DNA of 64,000 nt, from contig NC_082610.1 in the NCBI RefSeq assembly GCF_030936135.1, forward strand, positions 21,710,428 to 21,774,427. The letters run 5' to 3'. This DNA comes from Gavia stellata (Eukaryota; Chordata; Aves; Gaviiformes; Gaviidae). Positions 1 to 64,000 of this stretch are shown here, in pieces; positions within the stretch are counted from its first letter, which is position 1; the number at the start of each line of letters is the position of its first letter. The notes beneath the pieces are model-generated. The model was not told where the DNA came from. It did not search any database and was given only the letters and a program-made list of their open reading frames with translations. The position numbers were made by a program, and so were the translations under genes.

Positions 1-231
1 GAGCTGCTGCTCCCTGCCCAAAGCCGCCTTCAGCTCCCGCGTTTCGGTAGCGAAGCAGCGGCGCAGCTCCTGGGTGCGGTGCCGCTCTTCCTCCAGCTCA
101 GCCCGTAGCGCTTCCAGCTCCCGCCTCTGCTCCTCCTTCTGCGCAAGGCTGCTGGGGGCCTGCACCGGGCCCCGGCGGGGCGAGGGGCGGCTGCGCGCCA
201 CGAGCCCCCTGCCCGCAACATCCCGCGTCAT
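1..231 (-). CDS. RIM-binding-protein-like gene, copy 0 (N-terminal part only)
   Basis: Only the first 77 codons are present; the rest lies left of the window. The ATG is at 229-231 on the minus strand and is preceded by GACACC, so position -3 is A, a good vertebrate initiation context. The visible part is the basic Arg/Pro-rich N-terminus followed by the start of coiled coil 1 ([16 protein letters not shown]). It matches copies 1-13 without a frame break. It has the largest promoter minisatellite in the window. Confidence 0.9.
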   Translation of the reverse strand, partial: MTRDVAGRGLVARSRPSPRRGPVQAPSSLAQKEEQRRELEALRAELEEERHRTQELRRCFATETRELKAALGREQQL

Positions 232-349
232 GGTGTCGGCCACCAAACGCTGCTGCCCAAGGTCAGCAAGTGTTGCGTTCCTGGGGCTGCGAAGCCAAGA
301 CAGCGTCTGCCACGGCCGGGGCGGGTGAGCGTGGCCTTATGTGCATGTC

Positions 350-616
350 CTGGCCCCGAGCTCACAGTGGAGGGGAGGGGCAGCATGGCCTTATATGGTA
401 TGACCTGGGTGCCTGCGGGACACCTTAAGGACCTACCTTATATGGTAGGACCTGGCCCCGAGCTCACAGTGGAGGGGAGGGGCAGCATGGCCTTATATGG
501 TAGGACCTGGCCCCGAGCTCACAGTGGAGGGGAGGGGCAGCATGGCCTTATATGGTATGACCTGGCCCCGAGCTCACAGTGGAGGGGAGGGGCAGCATGG
601 CCTTATATGGTATGAC
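350..616 (-). promoter_or_regulatory. 55-bp minisatellite promoter of copy 0 (five repeats, one divergent)
   Basis: Repeats run 350-404, a divergent 47-bp repeat 405-451, then 452-506, 507-561 and 562-616. Each carries + strand CCTTATATGG, read as CCATATAAGG on the gene strand, at 389-398, 436-445, 491-500, 546-555 and 601-610. That sequence fits the SRF CArG consensus CC(A/T)6GG exactly and also contains a TATA-like TATAAGG. Regular repeats also carry GGAGGGGAGGGG, a typical Sp1/KLF/MAZ-type site. The block starts 118 bp upstream of the ATG. Promoter function is inferred from position and motifs. Confidence 0.7.
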
Positions 617-3126: not shown

Positions 3127-5217
3127 CTACCAATCACTTGTCCCTGGAGAGTCTCCGCTGGCATCAGGTTGTCCCTCATCTGAAACTTCTTCAACAAGAT
3201 TAGAGGGGACGAATCCTCTTGTGCCATCGGTCAGCTCTCCCACATACCAACCGTCTTCATCCACGTCTCCAAAGACGTACACGTATTGTCCAGCAACTAG
3301 AGGAAGCTCTAGTTCAGGCCGCTCGTTGGGACCATCGAAAGGATCATAGCTGTATCGAGCTATGAACGCTCGAAGCTCTGCCGGTTGTTTTCTCATCGCC
3401 TCCAGCAGGAGGGACTCCTTGTCTGCTACCAGGTTAGCCTGGCACGGCCTGGAAACGCTACGCTTGGATCTTGCTCTTTCCAGCCGTTCCAGTTCCTGAA
3501 ATAGCTGCTGGCGTTGTTCCTTTAGCTTCTCATACCAATCATTCAGTTCAATCAGCTGGGCTCGAAACAGTGGCAGGGTTTCTTGGAGTTCCCTCTGCAA
3601 GCACGCGCCTTCCTCTTCTTTCCTCTGGAGCGCTAGCTTTGCCTCCTCATGTTCCTTCTCCAGCTGTTGACTTCTTTCTGCCATTTCTCTCATGGCTTTC
3701 AGTTCACGCTCTGCCTCTTCCAGTTGGCTTTGAAGACAGACGTTTCTTTGGATGGCAGAATCTCGCTCGCCTGCCACTCGTGCTAGTAGTCCTTTCAGGT
3801 CAAGGTTTTCCGCTTGAACCTCTTCTGTCAAAGCCATCTGCCCATGGAGGCGAGCATTTTCTTGAGCCAGGCGGGTGTTTCCATTTGTCATCTCCGTGAG
3901 CTGCACCTGTAACTGCTCACGAGTTCGGCTGTGGGTGCTCACATCATAGGAGCCCTCTTCGTCTGCAGCCACTTGGGCCTGAAGCTCCACAGCTGCCTTC
4001 CGTGAGGAGTCGTCCTGCTTGTCCTGAGCCAGCAAAGCTCCGTCAGCCTCTCCTGTTTCTCCATCGCTCTGCTGAGGAAACGATGCCACACGCAGTTCCT
4101 CAGTAGAGCGTTGGATGGGCAGTGGCACTCGAGTATTGATCAGGCGATTGCTGGCCACCTGCAGTTGCCTGGATCTTTCTTCCAGCCGCGAGGCGAGGCC
4201 AGCTAGTTGAGCACTTTTCTGCCGCAGCCAATCTGCCTCCTTGCGGGCTTCTGGAGAGCCTTTCTTTTTCAGGAGGCGGCTCTCCATCTCAAGGGCCCTC
4301 TCTTGCCTCTCCAGGTCTTCCAGAAGACGCTGCAGGTGGGTGTTCTGCTCCAGGAGCTGGCTGCACGTGCTGCCAAGCAGCACCAAGTCTTCCGCCTCTG
4401 GCACCTGGAGCTGAGCATCTGCCACTGCCTTGCATGTTGTTTGCTGCCCAGCACTGTGGCTTTCGGGCAGTCTTTCCTGTAGTGCCGCCAGGGCCCGGGG
4501 CCCGTTTCTGCCAGAAGAGCAGGAGCTCTGCATCTCCTGATGGCCCTGGTGCGCAGGAGGGCCTTCGGGCTGGGCCGTGCTGGGGGAGGCGGGCAGCTCG
4601 CCCTCCAACTGCTGCAGGATGTATTTGGTGAAGAGTGTCCTCTCCAGCTGCAGCTGGTTCTGGAGGTGGCGGATGCGGGCGGGCTGGTAGCCATCTCTCT
4701 CCCAGCAGAGCTTGCTGAGGACATCCTGGAGCTTGCTCCGGGCCTCCCTGCCGCTGCTGCTGGGCCTCACCATCTCCTCGGCCAGCTGCCGCTGCAGGGC
4801 CCGCGTCTGGCCAAGGGCGGTGGTGCACTCGTGCCGCAGCAGCTCCTGTTCCTCGCGGAGCTCAGCCTCCTTCCAGCGCAGCAGCTGGCGGGTCTCCACC
4901 ACCCGCTGCCGCTGGTTCAACTCCAGAAGCCGCTGCACCTCCTGAGCCTGTCGCTGCTCCCACTCGGACTGGAGCCGCTCTGCCAGGAGCTGCTGCTCCC
5001 TGCCCAAAGCCGCCTTCAGCTCCCGCGTTTCGGTAGCGAAGCAGCGGCGCAGCTCCTGGGTGCGGTGCCGCTCTTCCTCCAGCTCAGCCCGTAGCGCTTC
5101 CAGCTCCCGCCTCTGCTCCTCCTTCTGCGCAAGGCTGCTGGGGGCCTGCACCGGGCCCCGGCGGGGCGAGGGGCGGCTGCGCGCCACGAGCCCCCTGCCC
5201 GCAACATCCCGCGTCAT
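3127..5217 (-). CDS. RIM-binding-protein (RIMBP)-family protein, one SH3, copy 1 (intact, 696 aa)
   Basis: Reference copy. The start is the ATG at 5215-5217; an upstream in-frame TTG is not a likely vertebrate start, and a TAA closes the frame further up. Residues 1-30 are basic and Arg/Pro-rich. Coiled coil 1 is about 31-150 (includes [10 protein letters not shown]). A RIMBP-like conserved segment spans 161-204 (ARIRHLQ, LFTKYIL). Coiled coil 2 is about 275-360 and coiled coil 3 about 405-585 ([26 protein letters not shown]). A basic linker (SKRSVSR) leads to an SH3 at about 615-678 with [19 protein letters not shown] and [17 protein letters not shown]3 domains bind proline-rich partners such as RIMs and calcium channels. 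The protein stops 18 residues after the SH3, so the FN3 repeats and SH3-II/III of full-length relatives are missing. There is no signal peptide or membrane segment. An intronless frame fits a retrogene origin, as proposed for RIMBP3. Assignment to RIMBP3 rather than TSPOAP1 is uncertain. Confidence 0.9.
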   Translation of the reverse strand: MTRDVAGRGLVARSRPSPRRGPVQAPSSLAQKEEQRRELEALRAELEEERHRTQELRRCFATETRELKAALGREQQLLAERLQSEWEQRQAQEVQRLLELNQRQRVVETRQLLRWKEAELREEQELLRHECTTALGQTRALQRQLAEEMVRPSSSGREARSKLQDVLSKLCWERDGYQPARIRHLQNQLQLERTLFTKYILQQLEGELPASPSTAQPEGPPAHQGHQEMQSSCSSGRNGPRALAALQERLPESHSAGQQTTCKAVADAQLQVPEAEDLVLLGSTCSQLLEQNTHLQRLLEDLERQERALEMESRLLKKKGSPEARKEADWLRQKSAQLAGLASRLEERSRQLQVASNRLINTRVPLPIQRSTEELRVASFPQQSDGETGEADGALLAQDKQDDSSRKAAVELQAQVAADEEGSYDVSTHSRTREQLQVQLTEMTNGNTRLAQENARLHGQMALTEEVQAENLDLKGLLARVAGERDSAIQRNVCLQSQLEEAERELKAMREMAERSQQLEKEHEEAKLALQRKEEEGACLQRELQETLPLFRAQLIELNDWYEKLKEQRQQLFQELERLERARSKRSVSRPCQANLVADKESLLLEAMRKQPAELRAFIARYSYDPFDGPNERPELELPLVAGQYVYVFGDVDEDGWYVGELTDGTRGFVPSNLVEEVSDEGQPDASGDSPGTSDW

Positions 5218-17671: not shown

Positions 17672-19836
17672 CTACCAATCACTTGGCCCTGGGAGAGTCT
17701 CCGCTGGCATCAGGTTGTCCCTCATCTGAAACTTCTTCAACAAGATTAGAGGGGACGAATCCTCTTGTGCCTTCGGTCAGCTCTCCCACATACCAACCGT
17801 CTTCATCCACGTCTCCAAAGACGTACACGTATTGTCCAGCAACTAGAGGAAGCTCTAGTTCAGGCCGCTCGTTGGGACCATCGAAAGGATCATAGCTGTA
17901 TCGAGCTATGAACGCTCGAAGCTCTGCCGGTTGTTTTCTCATCGCCTCCAGCAGGAGGGACTCCTGTCTGCTACCAGGTTAGCCTGGCACGCCTGGAAAC
18001 GCTACGCTTGGATCTTGCTCTTTCCAGCCGTTCCAGTTCCTGAAATAGCTGCTGGCGTTGTTCCTGTAGCTTCTTCATACCAATCATTCAGTTCAATCAG
18101 CTGGGCTCGAAACAGTGGCAGGGTTTCTTGGAGTTCCCTCTGCAAGCACGCGCCTTCCTCTTCTTTCCTCTGGAGCGCTAGCTTGGCCTCCTCATGTTCC
18201 TTCTCCAGCTGTTGACTTCTTTCTCTGCCATTTCTCTCATGGCTTTCAGTTCACGCTCTGCCTCTTCCAGTTGGCTTTGAAGACAGACGTTTCTTTGGAT
18301 GGCAGAATCTCGCTCGCCTGCCACTCGTGCTAGTAGTCCTTTCAGGTCAAGGTTTTCCGCTTGAACCTCTTCTGTCAAAGCCATCTGCCCATGGAGGCGA
18401 GCATTTTCTTGAGCCAGGCGGGTGTTTCCATTTGTCATCTCCGTGAGCTGCACCTGTAACTGCTCACGAGTTCGGCTGTGGGTGCTCACATCATAGGAGC
18501 CCTCTTCGTCTGCAGCCACTTGGGCCTGAAGCTCCACAGCTGCCTTCCGTGAGGAGTCGTCCTGCTTGTCCTGAGCCAGCAAAGCTCCATCAANNNNNNN
18601 NNNNNNNNNNNNNNNNNNNNNNNNNNNNNNNNNNNNNNNNNNNNNNNNNNNNNNNNNNNNNNNNNNNNNNNNNNNNNNNNNNNNNNNNNNNNNNNNNNNN
18701 NNNNNNNNNNNNNNNNNNNNNNNNNNNNNNNNNNNNNNNNNNNNNNNNNNNNNNNNNNNNNNNNNNNNNNNNNNNNNNNNNNNNNNNNNNNNNTACCTGC
18801 AGTTGCCTGGATCTTTCTTCCAGCCGCGAGGCGAGGCCAGCTAGTTGAGCACTTTTCTGCCGCAGCCAATCTGCCTCCTTGCGGGCTTCTGGAGAGCCTT
18901 TCTTTTTCAGGAGGCGGCTCTCCATCTCAAGGGCCCTCTCTTGCCTCTCCAGGTCTTCCAGAAGACGCTGCAGGTGGGTGTTCTGCTCCAGGAGCTGGCT
19001 GCACGTGCTGCCAAGCAGCACCAAGTCTTCCGCCTCTGGCACCTGGAGCTGAGCATCTGCCACTGCCTTGCATGTTGTTTGCTGCCCAGCACTGTGGCTT
19101 TCGGGCAGTCTTTCCTGTAGTGCCGCCAGGGCCCGGGGCCCGTTTCTGCCAGAAGAGCAGGAGCTCTGCATCTCCTGATGGCCCTGGTGCGCAGGAGGGC
19201 CTTCGGGCTGGGCCGTGCTGGGGGAGGCGGGCAGCTCGCCCTCCAACTGCTGCAGGATGTATTTGGTGAAGAGTGTCCTCTCCAGCTGCAGCTGGTTCTG
19301 GAGGTGGCGGATGCGGGCGGGCTGGTAGCCATCTCTCTCCCAGCAGAGCTTGCTGAGGACATCCTGGAGCTTGCTCCGGGCCTCCCTGCCGCTGCTGCTG
19401 GGCCTCACCATCTCCTCGGCCAGCTGCCGCTGCAGGGCCCGCGTCTGGCCAAGGGCGGTGGTGCACTCGTGCCGCAGCAGCTCCTGTTCCTCGCGGAGCT
19501 CAGCCTCCTTCCAGCGCAGCAGCTGGCGGGTCTCCACCACCCGCTGCCGCTGGTTCAACTCCAGAAGCCGCTGCACCTCCTGAGCCTGTCGCTGCTCCCA
19601 CTCGGACTGGAGCCGCTCTGCCAGGAGCTGCTGCTCCCTGCCCAAAGCCGCCTTCAGCTCCCGCGTTTCGGTAGCGAAGCAGCGGCGCAGCTCCTGGGTG
19701 CGGTGCCGCTCTTCCTCCAGCTCAGCCCGTAGCGCTTCCAGCTCCCGCCTCTGCTCCTCCTTCTGCGCAAGGCTTCCCGGCGGGGCGAGGGGCGGCTGCG
19801 CGCCACGAGCCCCCTGCCCGCAACATCCCGCGTCAT
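17672..19836 (-). CDS. RIM-binding-protein-like gene, copy 4 (interrupted by the N gap; frame broken)
   Basis: Expected stop at 17672-17674 and ATG at 19834-19836. The frame is cut by 200 Ns (18594-18793), which replace about 111 bp present in other copies. Single-base indels occur left of the gap, including one that changes the last residues to end in RAK. Near 19775 about 20 bp of the Arg/Pro-rich N-terminus are missing. The stretch 18794-19768 is clean and matches coiled coil 1 and the ARIRHLQ segment. If the gap hides whole units, the two flanks belong to different gene copies. Confidence 0.55.
18594..18793. other. Assembly gap of exactly 200 N
   Basis: A run of 200 unknown bases inside copy 4. 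The round length suggests a default scaffolding gap, not a measured distance. Flanks read CCATCAA before it and TACCTGCAG after it; in other copies these points are about 111 bp apart, so the missing sequence could be 111 bp or that plus any number of units. Confidence 0.97.
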
Positions 19837-22660: not shown

Positions 22661-24753
22661 CTACCAATCACTTGTCCCTGGAGAGTCTCCGCTGGCATCA
22701 GGTTGTCCCTCATCTGAAACTCTCTTCAACAAGATTAGAGGGGACGAATCCTCTTGTGCCATCGGTCAGCTCTCCCACATACCAACCGTCTTCATCCACG
22801 TCTCCAAAGACGTACACGTATTGTCCAGCAACTAGAGGAAGCTCTAGTTCAGGCCGCTCGTTGGGACCATCGAAAAGGATCATAGCTGTATCGAGCTATG
22901 AACGCTCGAAGCTCTGCCGGTTGTTTTCTCATCGCCTCCAGCAGGAGGGACTCCTTGTCTGCTACCAGGTTAGCCTGGCACGGCCTGGAAACGCTACGCT
23001 TGGATCTTGCTCTTTTCCAGCCGTTCCAGTTCCTGAAATAGCTGCTGGCGTTGTTCCTTTAGCTTCTCATACCAATCATTCAGTTCAATCAGCTGGGCTC
23101 GAAACAGTGGCAGGGTTTCTTGGAGTTCCCTCTGCAAGCACGCGCCTTCCTCTTCTTTCCTCTGGAGCGCTAGCTTTGCCTCCTCATGTTCCTTCTCCAG
23201 CTGTTGACTTCTTCTGCCATTTCTCTCATGGCTTTCAGTTCACGCTCTGCCTCTTCCAGTTGGCTTTGAAGACAGACGTTCTTTGGGATGGCAGAATCTC
23301 GCTCGCCTGCCACTCGTGCTAGTAGTCCTTTCAGGTCAAGGTTTTCCGCTTGAACCTCTTCTGTCAAAGCCATCTGCCCATGGAGGCGAGCATTTTCTTG
23401 AGCCAGGCGGGTGTTTCCATTTGTCATCTCCGTGAGCTGCACCTGTAACTGCTCACGAGTTCGGCTGTGGGTGCTCACATCATAGGAGCCCTCTTCGTCT
23501 GCAGCCACTTGGGCCTGAAGCTCCACAGCTGCCTTCCGTGAGGAGTCGTCCTGCTTGTCCTGAGCCAGCAAAGCTCCATCAGCCTCTCCTGTTTCTCCAT
23601 CGCTCTGCTGAGGAAACGATGCCACACGCAGTTCCTCAGTAGAGCGTTGGATGGGCAGTGGCACTCGAGTATTGATCAGGCGATTGCTGGCCACCTGCAG
23701 TTGCCTGGATCTTTCTTCCAGCCGCGAGGCGAGGCCAGCTAGTTGAGCACTTTTCTGCCGCAGCCAATCTGCCTCCTTGCGGGCTTCTGGAGAGCCTTTC
23801 TTTTTCAGGAGGCGGCTCTCCATCTCAAGGGCCCTCTCTTGCCTCTCCAGGTCTTCCAGAAGACGCTGCAGGTGGGTGTTCTGCTCCAGGAGCTGGCTGC
23901 ACGTGCTGCCAAGCAGCACCAAGTCTTCCGCCTCTGGCACCTGGAGCTGAGCATCTGCCACTGCCTTGCATGTTGTTTGCTGCCCAGCACTGTGGCTTTC
24001 GGGCAGTCTTTCCTGTAGTGCCGCCAGGGCCCGGGGCCCGTTTCTGCCAGAAGAGCAGGAGCTCTGCATCTCCTGATGGCCCTGGTGCGCAGGAGGGCCT
24101 TCGGGCTGGGCCGTGCTGGGGGAGGCGGGCAGCTCGCCCTCCAACTGCTGCAGGATGTATTTGGTGAAGAGTGTCCTCTCCAGCTGCAGCTGGTTCTGGA
24201 GGTGGCGGATGCGGGCGGGCTGGTAGCCATCTCTCTCCCAGCAGAGCTTGCTGAGGACATCCTGGAGCTTGCTCCGGGCCTCCCTGCCGCTGCTGCTGGG
24301 CCTCACCATCTCCTCGGCCAGCTGCCGCTGCAGGGCCCGCGTCTGGCCAAGGGCGGTGGTGCACTCGTGCCGCAGCAGCTCCTGTTCCTCGCGGAGCTCA
24401 GCCTCCTTCCAGCGCAGCAGCTGGCGGGTCTCCACCACCCGCTGCCGCTGCTTCAACTCCAGAAGCCGCTGCACCTCCTGAGCCTGTCGCTGCTCCCACT
24501 CGGACTGGAGCCGCTCTGCCAGGAGCTGCTGCTCCCTGCCCAAAGCCGCCTTCAGCTCCCGCGTTTCGGTAGCGAAGCAGCGGCGCAGCTCCTGGGTGCG
24601 GTGCCGCTCTTCCTCCAGCTCAGCCCGTAGCGCTTCCAGCTCCCGCCTCTGCTCCTCCTTCTGCGCAAGGCTGCTGGGGGCCTGCACCGGGCCCCGGCGG
24701 GGCGAGGGGCGGCTGCGCGCCACGAGCCCCCTGCCCGCAACATCCCGCGTCAT
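22661..24753 (-). CDS. RIM-binding-protein-like gene, copy 5 (C-terminal half frame-shifted, probably by assembly errors)
   Basis: The frame is clean from the ATG (24751-24753) to about 23290, covering coiled coils 1 and 2 and the start of 3. Net +2 bases follow: insertions near 22721, 22875, 23015 and 23287 and deletions near 23212 and 23280. The break would remove the SH3. All breaks fall inside the low-quality region, whose right border lies within this gene. Residue 101 is Lys (LELKQRQ), a change shared only with copy 8. The leader is the GTCGCA type. Confidence 0.6.
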
Positions 24754-42098: not shown

Positions 42099-42104
42099 TT
42101 TAAT
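42099..42104 (-). terminator. Poly(A) signal ATTAAA, copy 9
   Basis: Gene-strand ATTAAA, 43 bases after the stop codon. Confidence 0.75.
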
Positions 42105-44237: not shown

Positions 44238-44355
44238 TGCGACGGCCACCAAACGCTGCTGCCCAAGGTCAGCAAGTGTTGCGTTCCTGGGGCTGCGAAG
44301 CCAAGACAGCGTCTGCCACGGCCGGGGCGGGTGAGCGTGGCCTTATGTGCATGTC

Positions 44356-44465
44356 CTGGCCCCGAGCTCACAGTGGAGGGGAGGGGCAGCATGGCCTTAT
44401 ATGGTAGGACCTGGCCCCGAGCTCACAGTGGAGGGGAGGGGCAGCATGGCCTTATATGGTATGAC
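44356..44465 (-). promoter_or_regulatory. 55-bp minisatellite promoter of copy 9 (two repeats)
   Basis: Two repeats at 44356 and 44411 with intact CCATATAAGG motifs. Confidence 0.7.
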
Positions 44466-46927
44466 CTGGCCCCTCTGCGCACAAAGGAAGGCGGGCGGCA
44501 TTTTCCCCCAGAACAACGGAGAAGACAAAGAGGGGTTCCAAGCCATGCGCAAGAGAACCAAGTGACCTCTTCTGTACAAGTGGGTTTGCTGCTAGAAGGA
44601 ACCAGACCAAACTGGCTGAAAGCGGCAAAGTTGCAACAAAACTGTGCAAACAGCTATTAAATATTTCACCCCCACCTTGACATTCCTCTTCAAGACTGCC
44701 CTCAGAAATGGCCGGGGGGTCATATGGAGCTGTGAGCAGCCCCGGCCCACGCAGCACCCTCTGCACAGCAGAAGGAGCCTGCCCTGCCGGGGCTTGCTCT
44801 TCCCAGCCACAGCTGCTCCCCAAAATGCTGCGGGCGGCTCCCCGGGCAGGCTGAGTGCTGACCCTGGCAGGCGGCAGAGCCCCTGCCCCAGCACACAGCC
44901 CCCTGGGGCGTAGGGACCCTGCTTGGAAGGACTGTCCTGGGCAGCCCTGGGTGCACAGCCAGCTTCACGCCCCGCATCAGCCGTACCCGGGAGAAGGCAG
45001 CTCTCATGGCCTGTCCCTCTGACGATGCAGTAGGGAAGCCGTGCTCAGCAGCACGTCTTCCGGCAACCTGGATAAACTGTGAGGCTTGTTCAGACAGATG
45101 CCTTGGATGTACCGGATTTTGGAGAGCCCTCCGGGATATTCATGTGCACTGCCCTGCAGCCAGCATCTTACCATGTAAAGACCTGTGAAGATTTCTCCCA
45201 CCCTGGGAGCTCGGCTGTCCTGCCGCTAACCTCTCTCTGCGTCGCTCCGCTCCCCTCGCTGCCTGCAGGCAGTGCCCTCAGCCCTGCTGCGCTTTGCAGG
45301 GCAGCTGCTCCTGGGCAGAGCTGTCTCTCGCAAGCAATGCCCGCTTGCTATGAGCTGCCTCCGTCCCTGGAGCCCAGCCCAGCTCAGGAGCAGAGGCCCA
45401 GCCCAAGGCGTCACTTGCTCTGCCCCTTCTGGGCTCCCTGGAGATGTCCCAGGGGCTCCAGGGCTGCCAGCTCCTGAATGGCAGCAGAGTCACCCTTGGG
45501 GAAGGGACTTTTGAGCTGACTGCGCTAGTCACCGATTGTCCCTCTCTGAAGAGTGGAGAGAGACCGATTCCAAAAGCATGGTTTGTCCTTCCACAGCATG
45601 GCCGTCTATGGGAGCTGTAAACGTTCCCCTCTGGACACGGATATTCTTGAGCCGAAACAAAAAGAACATGCAGGCAGTGACAGGGAGCTGTTGGTTGGCC
45701 CTTGTGCCAGGCGGGGATTCAGCTGAAGCAATGCAGACATCTCATCCCCAGCTGGAAGCCCTCGGGAGGAAGCAGCATTCAGCTCCCCCCATGCAGCCCA
45801 CAGACCCCCACTGTTAAGGGGTGTCAAGCCTGGCCACCACTTCCAGCCACTCTGGCCCAGCACCCCCTCGTGCCATGCCGCTGGAGCCCAGTACAGACCA
45901 GGAGCACCCAGCAGAGTTCTGCCTGGCTGCTGGAGCCCAGCCCGGTGCCTGGGGACCTGGAGCCTTTGCCCAGGCTGAGGGATGCAGCTGCCACTTTTCC
46001 GCGTGCAGCTGTTACTTGTAGCGAAGCTGAGCGTGCATCCCAGAGATTCACACGCACAGACGCACAGACGCACGGACGTGGACACGCAGAGGACACTGAC
46101 ACGGCCAGTCACACAGACTGCCACAGATGAGGCGCTGCCGTCAACAGCACCCACACGCAGGACTCACATAAAACACAAACAGAGGCGGCCATGTCCCCTC
46201 CTCCTCGTGGGCTGCCAGAGGCAGGAGGCCGCTAGTGTAGGCACACCCACACACACACATGCCCACACGACACTCTCTACCTTCACAAGCGCACGCATGT
46301 GCATGGGTCCCCTGAGTACTGGCAGAGCCCCCCTTGGTCCCCCGGTACCCCTGCCCGGACCCCGGCCCTCTGACCCACCCCACGGGTCCCCTACTCGCTG
46401 CCTGGTCCCTCTAGGTGCTCCCTGCAAACATTCAGCACTCCCACATCTGTCCCGCAGGCACCCAACACTCGCCCGTCTCCCCAGGTGCCAGCGTGGGCCC
46501 TCTGCCTGCCTGATATCCCAGTCCGGACGCGAGGCCCCGCCTAGTCACCAGCTGCTCCAGCTTGAAGTTTGCTGGTGAAATCACACGCACACCCCCTGCA
46601 CCCCGGGTTTGGGGAAGATGCAGACACTCACAGAGCCTCTTACTTGCCTCCCTTGTGCTGGTCCCCCCCTGAGGTGGTTTTCAGGACACACACCGTTCCC
46701 AGCCCCGTGCCTGCTGTCCGAGACCCCCACTCGCTCCAGTAGCTGCACCGGGACCCATACCAGTAGCTGGCACCACAAGCCAGGGCTGCCTACACCCCCT
46801 GCTTGGCTGCGGTAGCTGGCAGCCAGTCCACCCACGCCAGCTCCCCCTGTAACCGGCACATCGTCCTTCCAGTTCCCACACACATGGCTTGAGAGTGAGA
46901 TGACACAGAGAGATCGTTCAGGAAAAA

Positions 46928-46975: not shown

Positions 46976-49066
46976 CTACCAATCACTTGTCCCTGGAGAG
47001 TCTCCGCTGGCATCAGGTTGTCCCTCATCTGAAACTTCTTCAACAAGATTAGAGGGGACGAATCCTCTTGTGCCATCGGTCAGCTCTCCCACATACCAAC
47101 CGTCTTCATCCACGTCTCCAAAGACGTACACGTATTGTCCAGCAACTAGAGGAAGCTCTAGTTCAGGCCGCTCGTTGGGACCATCGAAAGGATCATAGCT
47201 GTATCGAGCTATGAACGCTCGAAGCTCTGCCGGTTGTTTTTTCATTGCCTCCAGCAGGAGGGACTCCTTGTCTGCTACCAGGTTAGCCTGGCACGGCCTG
47301 GAAACGCTACGCTTGGATCTTGCTCTTTCCAGCCGTTCCAGTTCCTGAAATAGCTGCTGGCGTTGTTCCTTTAGCTTCTCATACCAATCATTCAGTTCAA
47401 TCAGCTGGGCTCGAAACAGTGGCAGGGTTTCTTGGAGTTCCCTCTGCAAGCACGCGCCTTCCTCTTCTTTCCTCTGGAGCGCTAGCTTGGCCTCCTCATG
47501 TTCCTTCTCCAGCTGTTGACTTCTTTCTGCCATTTCTCTCATGGCTTTCAGTTCACGCTCTGCCTCTTCCAGTTGGCTTTGAAGACAGACGTTTCTTTGG
47601 ATGGCAGAATCTCGCTCGCCTGCCACTCGTGCTAGTAGTCCTTTCAGGTCAAGGTTTTCCGCTTGAACCTCTTCTGTCAAAGCCATCTGCCCATGGAGGC
47701 GAGCATTTTCTTGAGCCAGGCGGGTGTTTCCATTTGTCATCTCCGTGAGCTGCACCTGTAACTGCTCACGAGTTCGGCTGTGGGTGCTCACATCATAGGA
47801 GCCCTCTTCGTCTGCAGCCACTTGGGCCTGAAGCTCCACAGCTGCCTTCCGTGAGGAGTCGTCCTGCTTGTCCTGAGCCAGCAAAGCTCCATCAGCCTCT
47901 CCTGTTTCTCCATCGCTCTGCTGAGGAAACGATGCCACACGCAGTTCCTCAGTAGAGCGTTGGATGGGCAGTGGCACTCGAGTATTGATCAGGCGATTGC
48001 TGGCCACCTGCAGTTGCCTGGATCTTTCTTCCAGCCGCGAGGCGAGGCCAGCTAGTTGAGCACTTTTCTGCCGCAGCCAATCTGCCTCCTTGCGGGCTTC
48101 TGGAGAGCCTTTCTTTTTCAGGAGGCGGCTCTCCATCTCAAGGGCCCTCTCTTGCCTCTCCAGGTCTTCCAGAAGACGCTGCAGGTGGGTGTTCTGCTCC
48201 AGGAGCTGGCTGCACGTGCTGCCAAGCAGCACCAAGTCTTCCGCCTCTGGCACCTGGAGCTGAGCATCTGCCACTGCCTTGCATGTTGTTTGCTGCCCAG
48301 CACTGTGGCTTTCGGGCAGTCTTTCCTGTAGTGCCGCCAGGGCCCGGGGCCCGTTTCTGCCAGAAGAGCAGGAGCTCTGCATCTCCTGATGGCCCTGGTG
48401 CGCAGGAGGGCCTTCGGGCTGGGCCGTGCTGGGGGAGGCGGGCAGCTCGCCCTCCAACTGCTGCAGGATGTATTTGGTGAAGAGTGTCCTCTCCAGCTGC
48501 AGCTGGTTCTGGAGGTGGCGGATGCGGGCGGGCTGGTAGCCATCTCTCTCCCAGCAGAGCTTGCTGAGGACATCCTGGAGCTTGCTCCGGGCCTCCCTGC
48601 CGCTGCTGCTGGGCCTCACCATCTCCTCGGCCAGCTGCCGCTGCAGGGCCCGCGTCTGGCCAAGGGCGGTGGTGCACTCGTGCCGCAGCAGCTCCTGTTC
48701 CTCGCGGAGCTCAGCCTCCTTCCAGCGCAGCAGCTGGCGGGTCTCCACCACCCGCTGCCGCTGGTTCAACTCCAGAAGCCGCTGCACCTCCTGAGCCTGT
48801 CGCTGCTCCCACTCGGACTGGAGCCGCTCTGCCAGGAGCTGCTGCTCCCTGCCCAAAGCCGCCTTCAGCTCCCGCGTTTCGGTAGCGAAGCAGCGGCGCA
48901 GCTCCTGGGTGCGGTGCCGCTCTTCCTCCAGCTCAGCCCGTAGCGCTTCCAGCTCCCGCCTCTGCTCCTCCTTCTGCGCAAGGCTGCTGGGGGCCTGCAC
49001 CGGGCCCCGGCGGGGCGAGGGGCGGCTGCGCGCCACGAGCCCCCTGCCCGCAACATCCCGCGTCAT
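46976..49066 (-). CDS. RIM-binding-protein-like protein, copy 10 (intact, 696 aa)
   Basis: Complete frame from ATG 49064-49066. One conservative change, Arg609 to Lys (EAMKKQ), just before the SH3. The leader reads GTCGCC before the ATG, intermediate between the two common types (GTCGCA and GACACC). Confidence 0.9.
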   Translation of the reverse strand: MTRDVAGRGLVARSRPSPRRGPVQAPSSLAQKEEQRRELEALRAELEEERHRTQELRRCFATETRELKAALGREQQLLAERLQSEWEQRQAQEVQRLLELNQRQRVVETRQLLRWKEAELREEQELLRHECTTALGQTRALQRQLAEEMVRPSSSGREARSKLQDVLSKLCWERDGYQPARIRHLQNQLQLERTLFTKYILQQLEGELPASPSTAQPEGPPAHQGHQEMQSSCSSGRNGPRALAALQERLPESHSAGQQTTCKAVADAQLQVPEAEDLVLLGSTCSQLLEQNTHLQRLLEDLERQERALEMESRLLKKKGSPEARKEADWLRQKSAQLAGLASRLEERSRQLQVASNRLINTRVPLPIQRSTEELRVASFPQQSDGETGEADGALLAQDKQDDSSRKAAVELQAQVAADEEGSYDVSTHSRTREQLQVQLTEMTNGNTRLAQENARLHGQMALTEEVQAENLDLKGLLARVAGERDSAIQRNVCLQSQLEEAERELKAMREMAERSQQLEKEHEEAKLALQRKEEEGACLQRELQETLPLFRAQLIELNDWYEKLKEQRQQLFQELERLERARSKRSVSRPCQANLVADKESLLLEAMKKQPAELRAFIARYSYDPFDGPNERPELELPLVAGQYVYVFGDVDEDGWYVGELTDGTRGFVPSNLVEEVSDEGQPDASGDSPGTSDW

Positions 49067-51804: not shown

Positions 51805-53895
51805 CTACCAATCACTTGTCCCTGGAGAGTCTCCGCTGGCATCAGGTTGTCCCTCATCTGAAACTTCTTCAACAAGATTAGAGGGGACGAATCCTCTTGT
51901 GCCATCGGTCAGCTCTCCCACATACCAACCGTCTTCATCCACGTCTCCAAAGACGTACACGTATTGTCCAGCAACTAGAGGAAGCTCTAGTTCAGGCCGC
52001 TCGTTGGGACCATCGAAAGGATCATAGCTGTATCGAGCTATGAACGCTCGAAGCTCTGCCGGTTGTTTTCTCATCGCCTCCAGCAGGAGGGACTCCTTGT
52101 CTGCTACCAGGTTAGCCTGGCACGGCCTGGAAACGCTACGCTTGGATCTTGCTCTTTCCAGCCGTTCCAGTTCCTGAAATAGCTGCTGGCGTTGTTCCTT
52201 TAGCTTCTCATACCAATCATTCAGTTCAATCAGCTGGGCTCGAAACAGTGGCAGGGTTTCTTGGAGTTCCCTCTGCAAGCACGCGCCTTCCTCTTCTTTC
52301 CTCTGGAGCGCTAGCTTTGCCTCCTCATGTTCCTTCTCCAGCTGTTGACTTCTTTCTGCCATTTCTCTCATGGCTTTCAGTTCACGCTCTGCCTCTTCCA
52401 GTTGGCTTTGAAGACAGACGTTTCTTTGGATGGCAGAATCTCGCTCGCCTGCCACTCGTGCTAGTAGTCCTTTCAGGTCAAGGTTTTCCGCTTGAACCTC
52501 TTCTGTCAAAGCCATCTGCCCATGGAGGCGAGCATTTTCTTGAGCCAGGCGGGTGTTTCCATTTGTCATCTCCGTGAGCTGCACCTGTAACTGCTCACGA
52601 GTTCGGCTGTGGGTGCTCACATCATAGGAGCCCTCTTCGTCTGCAGCCACTTGGGCCTGAAGCTCCACAGCTGCCTTCCGTGAGGAGTCGTCCTGCTTGT
52701 CCTGAGCCAGCAAAGCTCCGTCAGCCTCTCCTGTTTCTCCATCGCTCTGCTGAGGAAACGATGCCACACGCAGTTCCTCAGTAGAGCGTTGGATGGGCAG
52801 TGGCACTCGAGTATTGATCAGGCGATTGCTGGCCACCTGCAGTTGCCTGGATCTTTCTTCCAGCCGCGAGGCGAGGCCAGCTAGTTGAGCACTTTTCTGC
52901 CGCAGGCAATCTGCCTCCTTGCGGGCTTCTGGAGAGCCTTTCTTTTTCAGGAGGCGGCTCTCCATCTCAAGGGCCCTCTCTTGCCTCTCCAGGTCTTCCA
53001 GAAGACGCTGCAGGTGGGTGTTCTGCTCCAGGAGCTGGCTGCACGTGCTGCCAAGCAGCACCAAGTCTTCCGCCTCTGGCACCTGGAGCTGAGCATCTGC
53101 CACTGCCTTGCATGTTGTTTGCTGCCCAGCACTGTGGCTTTCGGGCAGTCTTTCCTGTAGTGCTGCCAGGGCCCGGGGCCCGTTTCTGCCAGAAGAGCAG
53201 GAGCTCTGCATCTCCTGATGGCCCTGGTGCGCAGGAGGGCCTTCGGGCTGGGCCGTGCTGGGGGAGGCGGGCAGCTCGCCCTCCAACTGCTGCAGGATGT
53301 ATTTGGTGAAGAGTGTCCTCTCCAGCTGCAGCTGGTTCTGGAGGTGGCGGATGCGGGCGGGCTGGTAGCCATCTCTCTCCCAGCAGAGCTTGCTGAGGAC
53401 ATCCTGGAGCTTGCTCCGGGCCTCCCTGCCGCTGCTGCTGGGCCTCACCATCTCCTCGGCCAGCTGCCGCTGCAGGGCCCGCGTCTGGCCAAGGGCGGTG
53501 GTGCACTCGTGCCGCAGCAGCTCCTGTTCCTCGCGGAGCTCAGCCTCCTTCCAGCGCAGCAGCTGGCGGGTCTCCACCACCCGCTGCCGCTGGTTCAACT
53601 CCAGAAGCCGCTGCACCTCCTGAGCCTGTCGCTGCTCCCACTCGGACTGGAGCCGCTCTGCCAGGAGCTGCTGCTCCCTGCCCAAAGCCGCCTTCAGCTC
53701 CCGCGTTTCGGTAGCGAAGCAGCGGCGCAGCTCCTGGGTGCGGTGCCGCTCTTCCTCCAGCTCAGCCCGTAGCGCTTCCAGCTCCCGCCTCTGCTCCTCC
53801 TTCTGCGCAAGGCTGCTGGGGGCCTGCACCGGGCCCCGGCGGGGCGAGGGGCGGCTGCGCACCACGAGCCCCCTGCCCGCAACATCCCGCGTCAT
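51805..53895 (-). CDS. RIM-binding-protein-like protein, copy 11 (intact, 696 aa)
   Basis: Complete frame from ATG 53893-53895, GACACC-type leader. Two changes from consensus: Ala12 to Val in the basic N-terminus and Trp330 to Cys in coiled coil 2 (EADCLRQ). The second replaces a large aromatic residue and is the least conservative change among the intact copies. Confidence 0.9.
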   Translation of the reverse strand: MTRDVAGRGLVVRSRPSPRRGPVQAPSSLAQKEEQRRELEALRAELEEERHRTQELRRCFATETRELKAALGREQQLLAERLQSEWEQRQAQEVQRLLELNQRQRVVETRQLLRWKEAELREEQELLRHECTTALGQTRALQRQLAEEMVRPSSSGREARSKLQDVLSKLCWERDGYQPARIRHLQNQLQLERTLFTKYILQQLEGELPASPSTAQPEGPPAHQGHQEMQSSCSSGRNGPRALAALQERLPESHSAGQQTTCKAVADAQLQVPEAEDLVLLGSTCSQLLEQNTHLQRLLEDLERQERALEMESRLLKKKGSPEARKEADCLRQKSAQLAGLASRLEERSRQLQVASNRLINTRVPLPIQRSTEELRVASFPQQSDGETGEADGALLAQDKQDDSSRKAAVELQAQVAADEEGSYDVSTHSRTREQLQVQLTEMTNGNTRLAQENARLHGQMALTEEVQAENLDLKGLLARVAGERDSAIQRNVCLQSQLEEAERELKAMREMAERSQQLEKEHEEAKLALQRKEEEGACLQRELQETLPLFRAQLIELNDWYEKLKEQRQQLFQELERLERARSKRSVSRPCQANLVADKESLLLEAMRKQPAELRAFIARYSYDPFDGPNERPELELPLVAGQYVYVFGDVDEDGWYVGELTDGTRGFVPSNLVEEVSDEGQPDASGDSPGTSDW

Positions 53896-54178: not shown

Positions 54179-55555
54179 CTGGCCCCTCTGCGCACAAAGG
54201 AGGGCGGGCGGCATTTTCCCCCAGAACAACGGAGAAGACAAAGATGGGTTCCAAGCCATGCGCAAGAGAACCAAGTGACCTCTTCTGTACAAGTGGGTTT
54301 GCTGCTACAAGAAACCAGACCAAACTGGCTGAAAGCGGCAAAGTTGCAACAAAACTGTGCAAACAGCTAATAAATATTTCACCCCCACCTTGACATTCCT
54401 CTTCAAGACTGCCCTCAGAAATGGCCGGGGGGTCATATGGAGCTGTGAGCAGCCCCGGCCCACGCAGCACCCTCTGCACAGCAGAAGGAGCCTGCCCTGC
54501 CGGGGCTTGCTCTTCCCAGCCACAGCTGCTCCCCAAAATGCTGCGGGCGGCTCCCCGGGCAGGCTGAGTGCTGACCCTGGCAGGCGGCAGAGCCCCTGCC
54601 CCAGCACACAGCCCCCTGGGGCGTAGGGACCCTGCTTGGAAGGACTGTCCTGGGCAGCCCTGGGTGCACAGCCAGCTTCACGCCCCGCATCAGCCGTACC
54701 CGGGAGAAGGCAGCTCTCATGGCCTGTCCCTCTGACGATGCAGTAGGGAAGCCGTGCTCAGCAGCACATCTTCCGGCAACCTGGATAAACTGTGAGGCTT
54801 GTTCAGACAGATGCCTTGGATGTACCGGATTTTGGAGAGCCCTCCGGGATATTCATGTGCACTGCCCTGCAGCCAGCATCTTACCATGTAAAGACCTGGG
54901 AAGATTTCTCCCACCCTGGGAGCTCGGCTGTCCTGCCGCTAACCTCTCTCTGCGTCGCTCCGCTCCCCTCGCTGCCTGCAGGCAGTGCCCTCAGCCCTGC
55001 TGCGCTTTGCAGGGCAGCTGCTCCTGGGCAGAGCTGTCTCTCGCAAGCAATGCCCGCTTGCTATGAGCTCCCTCCGTCCCTGGAGCCCAGCCCAGCTCAG
55101 GAGCAGAGGCCCAGCCCAAGGCGTCACTTGCTCTGCCCCTTCTGGGCTCCCTGGAGATGTCCCAGGGGCTCCAGGGCTGACAGCTCCTGAAAGGCAGCAG
55201 AGTCACCCTTGGGGAAGGGACTTTTGAGCTGACTGCGCTAGTCACCGATTGTCCCTCTCTGAAGAGTGGAGAGAGACCGATTCCAAAAGCATGGTTTGTC
55301 CTTCCACAGCATGGCCGTCTATGGGAGCTGTAAACGTTCCCCTCTGGACACGGATATTCTTGAGCCGAAACAAAAAGAACATGCAGGCAGTGACAGGGAG
55401 CTGTTGGTTGGCCCTTGTGCCAGGCGGGGATTCAGCTGAAGCAATGCAGACATCTCATCCCCAGCTGGAAGCCCTCGGGAGGAAGCAGCATTCAGCTCCC
55501 CCCATGCAGCCCACAGACCCCCACTGTTAAGGGGTGTCAAGCCTGGCCACCACTT

Positions 55556-55659
55556 CCAGCCACTCCGGCCAAGCACCCCCTCGTGCCCCTCCAGCCACTC
55601 CGGCCAAGCACCCCCTCGTGCCCCTCCAGCCACTCCGGCCCAGCACCCCCTCGTGCCAT
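55556..55659. repeat. Local 35-bp tandem triplication
   Basis: Two 35-bp units (55556-55590, 55591-55625) beginning CCAGCCACTCCGGCCAAGC precede the single ancestral segment (55626-55659) found in every other unit. The extra units have CCAAGC where the ancestral one has CCCAGC. With a one-base deletion near 55741 this accounts for the 69-bp excess of this unit over 4,884 bp. Confidence 0.9.
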
Positions 55660-56757: not shown

Positions 56758-58848
56758 CTACCAATCACTTGTCCCTGGAGAGTCTCCGCTGGCATCAGGT
56801 TGTCCCTCATCTGAAACTTCTTCAACAAGATTAGAGGGGACGAATCCTCTTGTGCCATCGGTCAGCTCTCCCACATACCAACCGTCTTCATCCACGTCTC
56901 CAAAGACGTACACGTATTGTCCAGCAACTAGAGGAAGCTCTAGTTCAGGCCGCTCGTTGGGACCATCGAAAGGATCATAGCTGTATCGAGCTATGAACGC
57001 TCGAAGCTCTGCCGGTTGTTTTCTCATCGCCTCCAGCAGGAGGGACTCCTTGTCTGCTACCAGGTTAGCCTGGCACGGCCTGGAAACGCTACGCTTGGAT
57101 CTTGCTCTTTCCAGCCGTTCCAGTTCCTGAAATAGCTGCTGGCGTTGTTCCTTTAGCTTCTCATACCAATCATTCAGTTCAATCAGCTGGGCTCGAAACA
57201 GTGGCAGGGTTTCTTGGAGTTCCCTCTGCAAGCACGCGCCTTCCTCTTCTTTCCTCTGGAGTGCTAGCTTTGCCTCCTCATGTTCCTTCTCCAGCTGTTG
57301 ACTTCTTTCTGCCATTTCTCTCATGGCTTTCAGTTCACGCTCTGCCTCTTCCAGTTGGCTTTGAAGACAGACGTTTCTTTGGATGGCAGAATCTCGCTCG
57401 CCTGCCACTCGTGCTAGTAGTCCTTTCAGGTCAAGGTTTTCCGCTTGAACCTCTTCTGTCAAAGCCATCTGCCCATGGAGGCGAGCATTTTCTTGAGCCA
57501 GGCGGGTGTTTCCATTTGTCATCTCCGTGAGCTGCACCTGTAACTGCTCACGAGTTCGGCTGTGGGTGCTCACATCATAGGAGCCCTCTTCGTCTGCAGC
57601 CACTTGGGCCTGAAGCTCCACAGCTGCCTTCCGTGAGGAGTCGTCCTGCTTGTCCTGAGCCAGCAAAGCTCCGTCAGCCTCTCCTGTTTCTCCATCGCTC
57701 TGCTGAGGAAACGATGCCACACGCAGTTCCTCAGTAGAGCGTTGGATGGGCAGTGGCACTCGAGTATTGATCAGGCGATTGCTGGCCACCTGCAGTTGCC
57801 TGGATCTTTCTTCCAGCCGCGAGGCGAGGCCAGCTAGTTGAGCACTTTTCTGCCGCAGCCAATCTGCCTCCTTGCGGGCTTCTGGAGAGCCTTTCTTTTT
57901 CAGGAGGCGGCTCTCCATCTTAAGGGCCCTCTCTTGCCTCTCCAGGTCTTCCAGAAGACGCTGCAGGTGGGTGTTCTGCTCCAGGAGCTGGCTGCACGTG
58001 CTGCCAAGCAGCACCAAGTCTTCCGCCTCTGGCACCTGGAGCTGAGCATCTGCCACTGCCTTGCATGTTGTTTGCTGCCCAGCACTGTGGCTTTCGGGCA
58101 GTCTTTCCTGTAGTGCCGCCAGGGCCCGGGGCCCGTTTCTGCCAGAAGAGCAGGAGCTCTGCATCTCCTGATGGCCCTGGTGCGCAGGAGGGCCTTCGGG
58201 CTGGGCCGTGCTGGGGGAGGCGGGCAGCTCGCCCTCCAACTGCTGCAGGATGTATTTGGTGAAGAGTGTCCTCTCCAGCTGCAGCTGGTTCTGGAGGTGG
58301 CGGATGCGGGCGGGCTGGTAGCCATCTCTCTCCCAGCAGAGCTTGCTGAGGACATCCTGGAGCTTGCTCCGGGCCTCCCTGCCGCTGCTGCTGGGCCTCA
58401 CCATCTCCTCGGCCAGCTGCCGCTGCAGGGCCCGCGTCTGGCCAAGGGCGGTGGTGCACTCGTGCCGCAGCAGCTCCTGTTCCTCGCGGAGCTCAGCCTC
58501 CTTCCAGCGCAGCAGCTGGCGGGTCTCCACCACCCGCTGCCGCTGGTTCAACTCCAGAAGCCGCTGCACCTCCTGAGCCTGTCGCTGCTCCCACTCGGAC
58601 TGGAGCCGCTCTGCCAGGAGCTGCTGCTCCCTGCCCAAAGCCGCCTTCAGCTCCCGCGTTTCGGTAGCGAAGCAGCGGCGCAGCTCCTGGGTGCGGTGCC
58701 GCTCTTCCTCCAGCTCAGCCCGTAGCGCTTCCAGCTCCCGCCTCTGCTCCTCCTTCTGCGCAAGGCTGCTGGGGGCCTGCACCGGGCCCCGGCGGGGCGA
58801 GGGGCGGCTGCGCGCCACGAGCCCCCTGCCCGCAACATCCCGCGTCAT
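56758..58848 (-). CDS. RIM-binding-protein-like protein, copy 12 (intact, 696 aa)
   Basis: Complete frame from ATG 58846-58848, GACACC-type leader. One change from consensus: Glu310 to Lys (RALKMESR) in coiled coil 2, a charge reversal. The SH3 is unchanged. Confidence 0.9.
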   Translation of the reverse strand: MTRDVAGRGLVARSRPSPRRGPVQAPSSLAQKEEQRRELEALRAELEEERHRTQELRRCFATETRELKAALGREQQLLAERLQSEWEQRQAQEVQRLLELNQRQRVVETRQLLRWKEAELREEQELLRHECTTALGQTRALQRQLAEEMVRPSSSGREARSKLQDVLSKLCWERDGYQPARIRHLQNQLQLERTLFTKYILQQLEGELPASPSTAQPEGPPAHQGHQEMQSSCSSGRNGPRALAALQERLPESHSAGQQTTCKAVADAQLQVPEAEDLVLLGSTCSQLLEQNTHLQRLLEDLERQERALKMESRLLKKKGSPEARKEADWLRQKSAQLAGLASRLEERSRQLQVASNRLINTRVPLPIQRSTEELRVASFPQQSDGETGEADGALLAQDKQDDSSRKAAVELQAQVAADEEGSYDVSTHSRTREQLQVQLTEMTNGNTRLAQENARLHGQMALTEEVQAENLDLKGLLARVAGERDSAIQRNVCLQSQLEEAERELKAMREMAERSQQLEKEHEEAKLALQRKEEEGACLQRELQETLPLFRAQLIELNDWYEKLKEQRQQLFQELERLERARSKRSVSRPCQANLVADKESLLLEAMRKQPAELRAFIARYSYDPFDGPNERPELELPLVAGQYVYVFGDVDEDGWYVGELTDGTRGFVPSNLVEEVSDEGQPDASGDSPGTSDW

Positions 58849-61599: not shown

Positions 61600-61641
61600 A
61601 AGAAGGTATAAGAAGACAGGACAGACAGCATCTGTGTCCTG

Positions 61642-63732
61642 CTACCAATCACTTGTCCCTGGAGAGTCTCCGCTGGCATCAGGTTGTCCCTCATCTGAAA
61701 CTTCTTCAACAAGATTAGAGGGGACGAATCCTCTTGTGCCATCGGTCAGCTCTCCCACATACCAGCCGTCTTCATCCACGTCTCCAAAGACGTACACGTA
61801 TTGTCCAGCAACTAGAGGAAGCTCTAGTTCAGGCCGCTCGTTGGGACCATCGAAAGGATCATAGCTGTATCGAGCTATGAACGCTCGAAGCTCTGCCGGT
61901 TGTTTTCTCATCGCCTCCAGCAGGAGGGACTCCTTGTCTGCTACCAGGTTAGCCTGGCACGGCCTGGAAACGCTACGCTTGGATCTTGCTCTTTCCAGCC
62001 GTTCCAGTTCCTGAAATAGCTGCTGGCGTTGTTCCTTTAGCTTCTCATACCGATCATTCAGTTCAATCAGCTGGGCTCGAAACAGTGGCAGGGTTTCTTG
62101 GAGTTCCCTCTGCAAGCACGCGCCTTCCTCTTCTTTCCTCTGGAGCGCTAGCTTTGCCTCCTCATGTTCCTTCTCCAGCTGTTGACTTCTTTCTGCCATT
62201 TCTCTCATGGCTTTCAGTTCACGCTCTGCTTCTTCCAGTTGGCTTTGAAGACAGACGTTTCTTTGGATGGCAGAATCTCGCTCGCCTGCCACTCGTGCTA
62301 GTAGTCCTTTCAGGTCAAGGTTTTCCGCTTGAACCTCTTCTGTCAAAGCCATCTGCCCATGGAGGCGAGCATTTTCTTGAGCCAGGCGGGTGTTTTCATT
62401 TGTCATCTCCGTGAGCTGCACCTGTAACTGCTCACGAGTTCGGCTGTGGGTGCTCACATCATAGGAGCCTTCTTCGTCTGCAGCCACTTGGGCCTGAAGC
62501 TCCACAGCCGCCTTCCGTGAGGAGTCGTCCTGCTTGTCCTGCGCCAGCAAAGCTCCGTCAGCCTCTCCTGTTTCTCCATCGCTCTGCTGAGGAAACGATG
62601 CCACACACAGTTCCTCAGTAGAGCGTCGGATGGGCAGTGGCACTCGAGTATTGATCAGGCGATTGCTGGCCACCTGCAGTTGCCTGGATCTTTCTTCCAG
62701 CCGCGAGGCGAGGCCAGCTAGTTGAGCACTTTTCTGCCGCAGCCAATCTGCCTCCTTGCGGGCTTCTGGAGAGCCTTTCTTTTTCAGGAGGCGGCTCTCC
62801 ATCTCAAGGGCCCTCTCTTGCCTCTCCAGGTCTTCCAGAAGACGCTGCAGGTGGGTGTTCTGCTCCAGGAGCTGGCTGCACGTGCTGCCAAGCAGCACCA
62901 AGTCTTCCGCCTCTGGCACCTGGAGCTGAGCATCTGCCACTGCCTTGCATGTTGTTTGCTGCCCAGCACTGTGGCTTTCGGGCAGTCTTTCCTGTAGTGC
63001 CGCCAGGGCCCGGGGCCCGTTTCTGCCAGAAGAGCAGGAGCTCTGCATCTCCTGATGGCCCTGGTGCGCAGGAGGGCCTTCGGGCTGGGCCGTGCTGGGG
63101 GAGGCGGGCAGCTCGCCCTCCAACTGCTGCAGGATGTATTTGGTGAAGAGTGTCCTCTCCAGCTGCAGCTGGTTCTGGAGGTGGTGGATGCGGGCGGGCT
63201 GGTAGCCATCTCTCTCCCAGCAGAGCTTGCTGAGGACATCCTGGAGCTTGCTCCGGGCCTCCCTGCCGCTGCTGCTGGGCCTCACCATCTCCTCGGCCAG
63301 CTGCCGCTGCAGGGCCCGTGTCTGGCCAAGGGCGGTGGTGCACTCGTGCCGCAGCAGCTCCTGTTCCTCGCGGAGCTCAGCCTCCTTCCAGCGCAGCAGC
63401 TGGCGGGTCTCCACCACCCGCTGCCGCTGGTTCAACTCCAGAAGCCGCTGCACCTCCTGAGCCTGTCGCTGCTCCCACTCGGACTGGAGCCGCTCTGCCA
63501 GGAGCTGCTGCTCCCTGCCCAAAGCCGCCTTCAGCTCCCGGGTTTCGGTAGCGAAGCAGCGGCGCAGCTCCTGGGTGCGGTGCCGCTCTTCCTCCAGCTC
63601 AGCCCGTAGCGCTTCCAGCTCCCGCCTCTGCTCCTCCTTCTGCGCAAGGCTGCTGGGGGCCTGCACCGGGGCCCGGCGGGGCGAGGGGCGGCTGCGCGCC
63701 ACGAGCCCCCTGCCCGCAACATCCCGCGTTAT
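61642..63732 (-). pseudogene. RIM-binding-protein-like gene, copy 13 (open frame, start codon lost)
   Basis: The 696-codon frame is unbroken, but the start codon reads ATA (63730-63732; + strand TAT where all others have CAT). No upstream in-frame ATG is available before a TAA, and the next in-frame Met is in EEMVRPSS near residue 149, so a re-initiated product would lack coiled coil 1. Six further changes: Gly21Ala, Arg183His, Gln369Arg, Arg376Cys, Gly446Glu and Trp561Arg. Silent changes are also commoner than elsewhere. The SH3 residues are intact. It could be a decayed edge copy, a copy starting at a non-AUG codon, or an older version of the unit. Confidence 0.7.
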
Positions 63733-64000
63733 GGTGTCGGCCACCAAACGCTGCTGCCCAAGGTCAGCAAGTGTTGCGTTCCTGGGGCTGCGAAGCCAAG
63801 ACAGCGTCTGCCACGGCCGGGGCGGGTGAGCATGGCCTTACGTGCATGTCCTGGCCCCGAGCTCACAGTGGAGGGGAGGGGCAGCATGGCCTTACATGGT
63901 AGGACCTGGCCCCGAGCTCACAGTGGAGGGGAGGGGCAGCATGGCCTTATATGGTATGACCTGGCCCCTCTGCGCACAAAGGAGGGCGGGTGGCATTTTC
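63733..64000. other. Start of the spacer upstream of copy 13 (cut by window end)
   Basis: Holds the leader and promoter repeats of copy 13 and the first bases beyond them. Private changes are GTGAGCATGG (63832), CCTTACGTGC (63841) and GGGTGGCATT near 63990. It is not seen whether another unit follows. Confidence 0.75.
63851..63960 (-). promoter_or_regulatory. 55-bp minisatellite promoter of copy 13 (two repeats, one motif damaged)
   Basis: Two repeats at 63851 and 63906. The gene-proximal one reads CCTTACATGG on the + strand, so the gene strand has CCATGTAAGG, which breaks both the CArG consensus and the TATA-like core. The distal motif is intact. Confidence 0.65.

Follow-up and report, generated by a model that had tools for sequence, protein, structure and literature searches.

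A tandem array of about sixty single-exon RIM-binding-protein-like genes in Gavia stellata

A 64,000-nucleotide stretch of Gavia stellata DNA (the window, C17:21710428-21774427, where C17 is contig NC_082610.1 of 22.39 Mb) is an inner slice of one larger array on the same contig, in which kilobase-scale units with a gene in each follow one another head to tail over hundreds of kilobases, the layout of a coding macrosatellite. As the best explanation, which we consider fairly probable, we propose that this macrosatellite derives from a RIMBP1-type retrogene, is homogenised by exchange and encodes a protein under selection.

Extent and layout of the array

BLAST located 14 minus-strand gene copies in the window, of which 13 are whole and one is cut by the left edge; none lies on the plus strand. 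Eight of the whole copies are strictly intact (ATG start, 696 aa), one is open with an ATA start, three are frameshifted and one is split by a gap of 200 N. Of all 24-mers, 95% recur within the window, with main spacings of 4884 and 4829 bp, far above chance. The features are listed below by window position and strand.

1..231, minus: 5' part of a gene copy that the window edge truncates; the complete copy, at C17:21708568-21710673, is intact
3127..5217, minus: gene copy, intact, 696 aa
7956..10046, minus: gene copy, intact, 696 aa
12840..14930, minus: gene copy with 10 indels, frameshifted, adjoining the gap
17672..19836, minus: gene copy split by the 200-N gap
18594..18793, no strand: assembly gap, 200 N
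22661..24753, minus: gene copy, frameshifted (4 indels), adjoining the gap
27494..29585, minus: gene copy with a single 1-bp insertion
32379..34469, minus: gene copy, intact
37263..39353, minus: gene copy, intact
42147..44237, minus: gene copy, intact; the reference copy
42150..42404, minus: C-terminal part of the reference copy, aa 612-696, SH3 domain (Pfam and PDB match)
42099..42104, minus: ATTAAA poly(A)-type signal 3' of the reference copy; at equal distance in 40 of 40 units
44355..44473, minus: minisatellite of 55 bp on the promoter side, containing CCATATAAGG; the window has 13 sister tracts
46976..49066, minus: gene copy, intact
51805..53895, minus: gene copy, intact
55555..55657, no strand: minisatellite of 35 bp in the spacer, with 2.9 copies; a single window unit has it expanded
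56758..58848, minus: gene copy, intact
61642..63732, minus: gene copy, open frame, ATA replacing ATG

The genome (1.32 Gb in 1185 contigs, one assembly) was searched, and sequence was read over 250 kb (C17:21600001-21850000), over two pieces at the right end that add up to 40 kb (21940001-21960000 and 21980001-22000000) and at a few loci from the searches; C17 from 21.85 to 21.94 Mb is known from search rows alone. Protein and SH3 searches, together with spacing, place 61 direct-order copies at C17:21635204-21955942, the final one truncated, and two inverted gene copies at 21987-21994 kb. The array spans 321 kb and lies 0.4 Mb from the contig end. A search with the array protein returned at least 66 rows, all on C17, at least 55 of which cover the full length with no stop (64 of 387 candidates scored), and a search with the RIMBP2 SH3 domain gave 74 matches, 63 of them on C17 (96 of 96 candidates scored). 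Copy counts are lower bounds, and the tallies per contig and per type were made by hand.

The standard unit is 4828-5041 bp long and contains one 696-aa single-exon minus-strand gene, a 55-bp promoter-side repeat and an ATTAAA signal; GC is 61%. The differences in unit length consist in part of whole copies of the 55-bp repeat directly upstream of the ATG. Throughout the 250 kb read, ATTAAA lies 42-43 nt past the stop codon (40 of 40 units), and a CC(A/T)6GG word (CCATATAAGG in the reference unit), which we take to be CArG- and TATA-like, occurs one to six times per unit within 420 bases upstream of the gene. The sequence-only reading, which had described at least 14 near-identical tandem copies, at least eight intact frames, and a promoter and poly(A) signal in every unit, is borne out by the eight strictly intact copies, the promoter-side repeat with its CC(A/T)6GG words and the fixed ATTAAA, and it understated the array, which has 61 direct and two inverted copies on C17. 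It did not give the strand, which is minus for every copy in the window.

Rfam gave no match at the gathering threshold. The left flank holds 138 frames of at least 70 aa, and ten of them, scanned with Pfam, yielded one match above the cut-off, to the reverse transcriptase RVT_1 (a fragment at L011:2564-3097); matches to GP52 and Suv3_C_1 in the same ten of 138 frames were weak and below the Pfam cut-offs. Right-flank frames are gag/pol-like by eye, and a long open frame of 711 aa close to the inverted copies of the gene (L032:7318-9450) looks retroelement-like. No host neighbour gene was identified among the ten Pfam-scanned left-flank frames and the right-flank frames judged by eye.

The encoded protein and its origin

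The 696-aa reference protein carries a RIMB1_N domain at residues 287-415 (Pfam, 79.3 bits against a cut-off of 28.5, E = 2.9e-22) and an SH3 domain at residues 630-678. Its best PDB match is the SH3 domain of RIM binding protein 2 (1wie, 1.1e-26), aligned at residues 612-692. The array SH3 is 62% identical to that of human RIMBP2 over 74 aa, and its protein sequence is the same in 32 of the 33 copies compared. E-, L-, R- and Q-rich stretches suggest a coiled coil from composition alone. With Pfam, a single SH3 region and no FN3 domain were found in the 696-aa protein. A RIMBP-type SH3 together with RIMB1_N places the protein in the broad RIM-binding protein family, and the best structural match falls inside this family and not outside it. 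The RIMBP-like label first given to the gene therefore holds at family level.

Two spliced genes of this family were recognised on C25 and C21. Two RIMB1_N exons on C25, and SH3-I exons on both contigs, have AG and GT at their borders, as judged by eye, and the array gene runs across these junctions as a continuous 696-aa frame in a single coding exon. Ig_RIMBP2 (PF25523) has five matches in the genome, all of them on C25 or C21 (15 of 15 candidates scored), and the minus-strand order RIMB1_N, SH3-I, Ig on C25 is as in one RIMBP gene. No RIMB1_N match was found on C21 among the matches listed (150 of 176 candidates scored), which points to a RIMBP1-type parent such as the gene on C25; which of the two genes is RIMBP1 and which RIMBP2 we infer from domains and synteny. 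The array gene thus shares RIMB1_N with the C25 gene and SH3-I with both, whereas RIMBP1 (TSPOAP1) and RIMBP2 are spliced and carry Ig_RIMBP2 on C25 and C21. Since their introns and Ig/FN3-type domain are absent from the array gene, the latter would be a truncated RIMBP retro-derivative, and its sequence fits an old processed copy ending after SH3-I.

It is also conceivable that the array gene is the orthologue of mammalian RIMBP3, from a retrocopy older than the bird-mammal split that was later truncated and amplified, and the sequence-only reading had made a link to RIMBP3. On the domain features tested, membership in RIMBP3 of the mammalian type fails, as the protein has one SH3 region and no FN3, and Ig_RIMBP2 is confined to the two spliced genes. 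The array does not lie on the contig of DGCR6, which we take to be a 22q11-type marker near RIMBP3 (C17 as opposed to C21), synteny being weak evidence for a retrogene. Both genes are single-exon, and a RIMB1-type N-terminal domain occurs in the array protein; moreover, three Rimbp3-type genes are given for chicken, in a scheme that counts TSPOAP1 as Rimbp3 (excerpt of PMC7565545). In excerpts of PMC8850557, however, RIM-BP3, a single-exon gene with three copies in human, is stated to be mammal-only, and RIM-BPs are described as carrying three SH3 and two to three FN3 domains. The array has about 20 times as many copies as human RIM-BP3. We regard orthology as unlikely and assign the gene to the RIMBP family without placing it in RIMBP3.

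According to the preferred explanation, a RIMBP1-type gene would have given rise to a processed, intron-less copy ending after the first SH3 domain, which, with a promoter-side repeat and a poly(A) signal of its own, would have become a self-contained unit. Unequal exchange would then have produced an array of about 60 units near the contig end. Continuing exchange or conversion would keep the units nearly uniform, change copy number and spread variants, and selection would maintain an adaptor-like protein.

Homogenisation and copy number

Across 34 units and 4810 columns, neighbouring units differ by 20.2 on average, compared with 26.8 for all pairs (p = 5e-5 against shuffled order), and local homogenisation is evident from these differences between units. 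An LTR-flanked insert of about 6.7 kb occupies the identical site in three units (C17:21776898, 21822474 and 21838861, the third seen in part). It has 619-bp direct end repeats, which differ at 7 and 5 of 619 positions, and the two whole inserts show a 5-bp target duplication. A 619-bp insert is present at this site in one further unit (locus L029), and the spacing alone suggests a fourth unit of similar insert-bearing length. One insertion copied along with its unit is the simplest account of the LTR inserts, and such copying supports the spread of units by exchange.

Part of the copy number may be artificial, either because a second haplotype was left uncollapsed or because sequence around the gap was falsely joined. 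With the exception of unit 3, each of units 1-10 has its closest or a near-closest relative among units 16-27, at a difference of 0.02-0.23%, about the allelic level, and an offset of 73-83 kb. The array also includes a 200-N gap and indel-rich units. The paired blocks lie in C17:21640245-21772068. The pairing would reflect either a recent block duplication or two haplotypes placed end to end near the gap; in the case of haplotypes, the count would be 10-17 lower, at about 44-51, yet the array would remain. On the other hand, units 30-31 and 34-39 differ by 0.5-0.7% from their closest relatives and three units share the insert, so that many copies are distinct. Inflation is an unlikely reading.

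A second amplified family

RIMB1_N has at least 150 matches (150 of 176 candidates scored), of which 60 lie on C17 and 86 are spread over 17 further contigs, with 34 of these 86 on C1132. A second family, with at least 77 copies on contigs other than C17 (105 of 371 candidates scored), occurs on C1132 (928733 bases), C1125 (187 kb), C186, C1017 and C388, among others, and includes loci L037 and L038. The amplified RIMBP-like gene of the sequence-only reading is thus recovered in the C17 array, but it is not the only one. Among the matches listed, the short type has frames of 426 aa (404 in one), and 44 of its 45 full-length matches lack a stop; the long type has frames of 472-1052 aa, mostly 620-814, and none of its 32 N-terminal matches has a stop. 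The commonest lengths of the long type differ by 48-49 aa, corresponding to an internal repeat seen in L037. Some copies on C1132 recur 224-226 kb apart (264953/490490/714424 and 391541/616923). The RIMBP2 SH3 search (96 of 96 candidates scored) gave no match on second-family contigs. The sequence 3' of the L037 gene matches the C17 spacer at 78% identity along 1.2 kb, which indicates that the units share ancestry.

Intron-less pieces on C3 and C1 have a deletion and frame changes, and the promoter-side repeat is retained in them at about 70-84%. Eight SH3 rows belong neither to C17 nor to the spliced genes; five have stops and three do not. The SH3-I-like stretches without stops (C3:13653779, C25:130655 and C1:108978629) possibly belong to other intron-less relatives.

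Constraint on the coding frame

Variants were compared in 33 open-frame copies (31 intact, two with ATA) out of 39 extracted, the other six being frameshifted. They carry 65 variant alleles, 30 synonymous and 35 not, with a mean CDS divergence of 0.43%. Expected numbers were derived from context-specific mutation rates in the spacers of 34 of the 40 units. Four frameshifted copies were kept in this set, and the six units excluded were three beside the gap, two with an insert and the last one. Under this spacer spectrum, 27 synonymous changes were observed against 26.6 expected, 33 nonsynonymous against 66.9, and no stop against 3.8 (binomial p = 0.005, which is approximate because the counts treat variants as independent and conversion makes them non-independent). 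With synonymous changes as expected, amino-acid changes halved and stops absent, the pattern indicates purifying selection, and selection appears to keep the protein intact. Gene diversity is 0.41%, lower than in any of the four spacer bins (0.50-0.89%) or in the promoter bin (1.0%). These results, with the similarity of neighbouring units, agree with the earlier proposal of homogenisation and selection.

Frame damage is unevenly placed. A total of 33 of 40 units have no gene indel, and the seven with indels are confined to two patches, units 5-7 at 21.660-21.671 Mb and, around the gap, units 18-21 at 21.723-21.740 Mb. In four of these seven the spacer contains indels as well (2-32 per unit), suggesting poor consensus. 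Units 5, 7 and 21 each have a single 1-bp gene indel with no spacer indel seen, and here the damage is possibly real. A pseudogene reading of the frameshifts is not favoured because of this confinement and the accompanying spacer indels. In the window, indel-rich units flank the gap on both sides (12840-27493), probably as a result of low-quality consensus.

The array might alternatively be a largely neutral or selfish satellite with a coding relic, whose frames are intact merely through recent homogenisation. At a CDS divergence of 0.43%, few disabling changes would have accumulated, and dN/dS is 1.19 for C1132 versus C1125, at a low dS of 0.046, and 1.05 for C17 versus the degenerate C1 piece, both against constraint. 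In comparisons of C17 with C3 (itself degenerate), C1125 and C1132, dN/dS is 0.64-0.68. The deficit of nonsynonymous changes and stops beside an undiminished synonymous count, and the near absence of stops from the short type of the second family, speak against neutrality, which we consider distinctly unlikely.

Comparable systems and possible function

The nearest layout is that of the human RS447 macrosatellite with USP17 at 4p16.1, which has protein-coding units of 4.7 kb, 20-103 of them in one sample and about 60 on average in another (excerpt of PMC3599962), next to 61 copies of 4.8-5.0 kb on C17. RS447 codes for an unrelated protein, a deubiquitinase, whereas the C17 units carry minisatellites and some have LTR inserts. 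CT47 (Xq24, 4.8 kb) and D4Z4/DUX4 are likewise tandem units that each code for a gene, of germline type (excerpt of PMC3599962); D4Z4 is subtelomeric and DUX4 is a retrogene (excerpts of PMC3599962 and PMC3616921). Their proteins differ from that of the C17 array, for which germline expression is an analogy.

We infer that many array copies are transcribed and that their product is a coiled-coil/SH3 adaptor. The gene is perhaps expressed in the germline. RIM-BP3 associates with the spermatid manchette and HOOK1 (excerpts of PMC8850557 and PMC5260884), and by analogy the array product may act in the male germline, although it lacks most RIM-BP3 domains. That it acts in neurons instead, where it would compete in part with RIMBP1/2 at presynaptic sites, is highly improbable: the conserved SH3, 62% identical to that of human RIMBP2 and nearly invariant among copies, means that ligand binding may persist, but nothing positive supports a neuronal role and intron-less amplified genes are often germline-expressed.

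Avian ampliconic gene families are known mainly from sex chromosomes. HIT has three matches in the genome, all on C44 (11 of 11 candidates scored), and CHD1-like_C has three, on C44, C13 and C25 (6 of 6 candidates scored); both marker types are presumably Z-linked. No extra HINTW- or CHD1W-like copy was seen among these candidates, so no W contig was recognised. The array contig C17 differs from C44, where the Z-type markers tried lie. At the level of titles and the beginnings of abstracts, no report of an avian RIMBP array was found.

As a more speculative and improbable extension, the co-option of a RIMBP1-derived retrogene could have been independent of that of mammalian RIMBP3, and the gene could then have given rise to two amplified families with at least 140 assembled copies. 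One is the C17 array, whose genes carry the SH3 domain; the other, on different contigs, lacks SH3, has internal repeats in part of its copies, and could titrate or counter the first. If true, the two families would resemble sperm competition, or a drive element and its suppressor in an arms race. The array may parallel mammalian RIMBP3 in that a RIM-binding-protein retrogene would have been recruited twice. About 60 mostly intact single-exon genes lying off C44, together with the SH3-less family, would provide a test case for dosage, sperm competition or drive.
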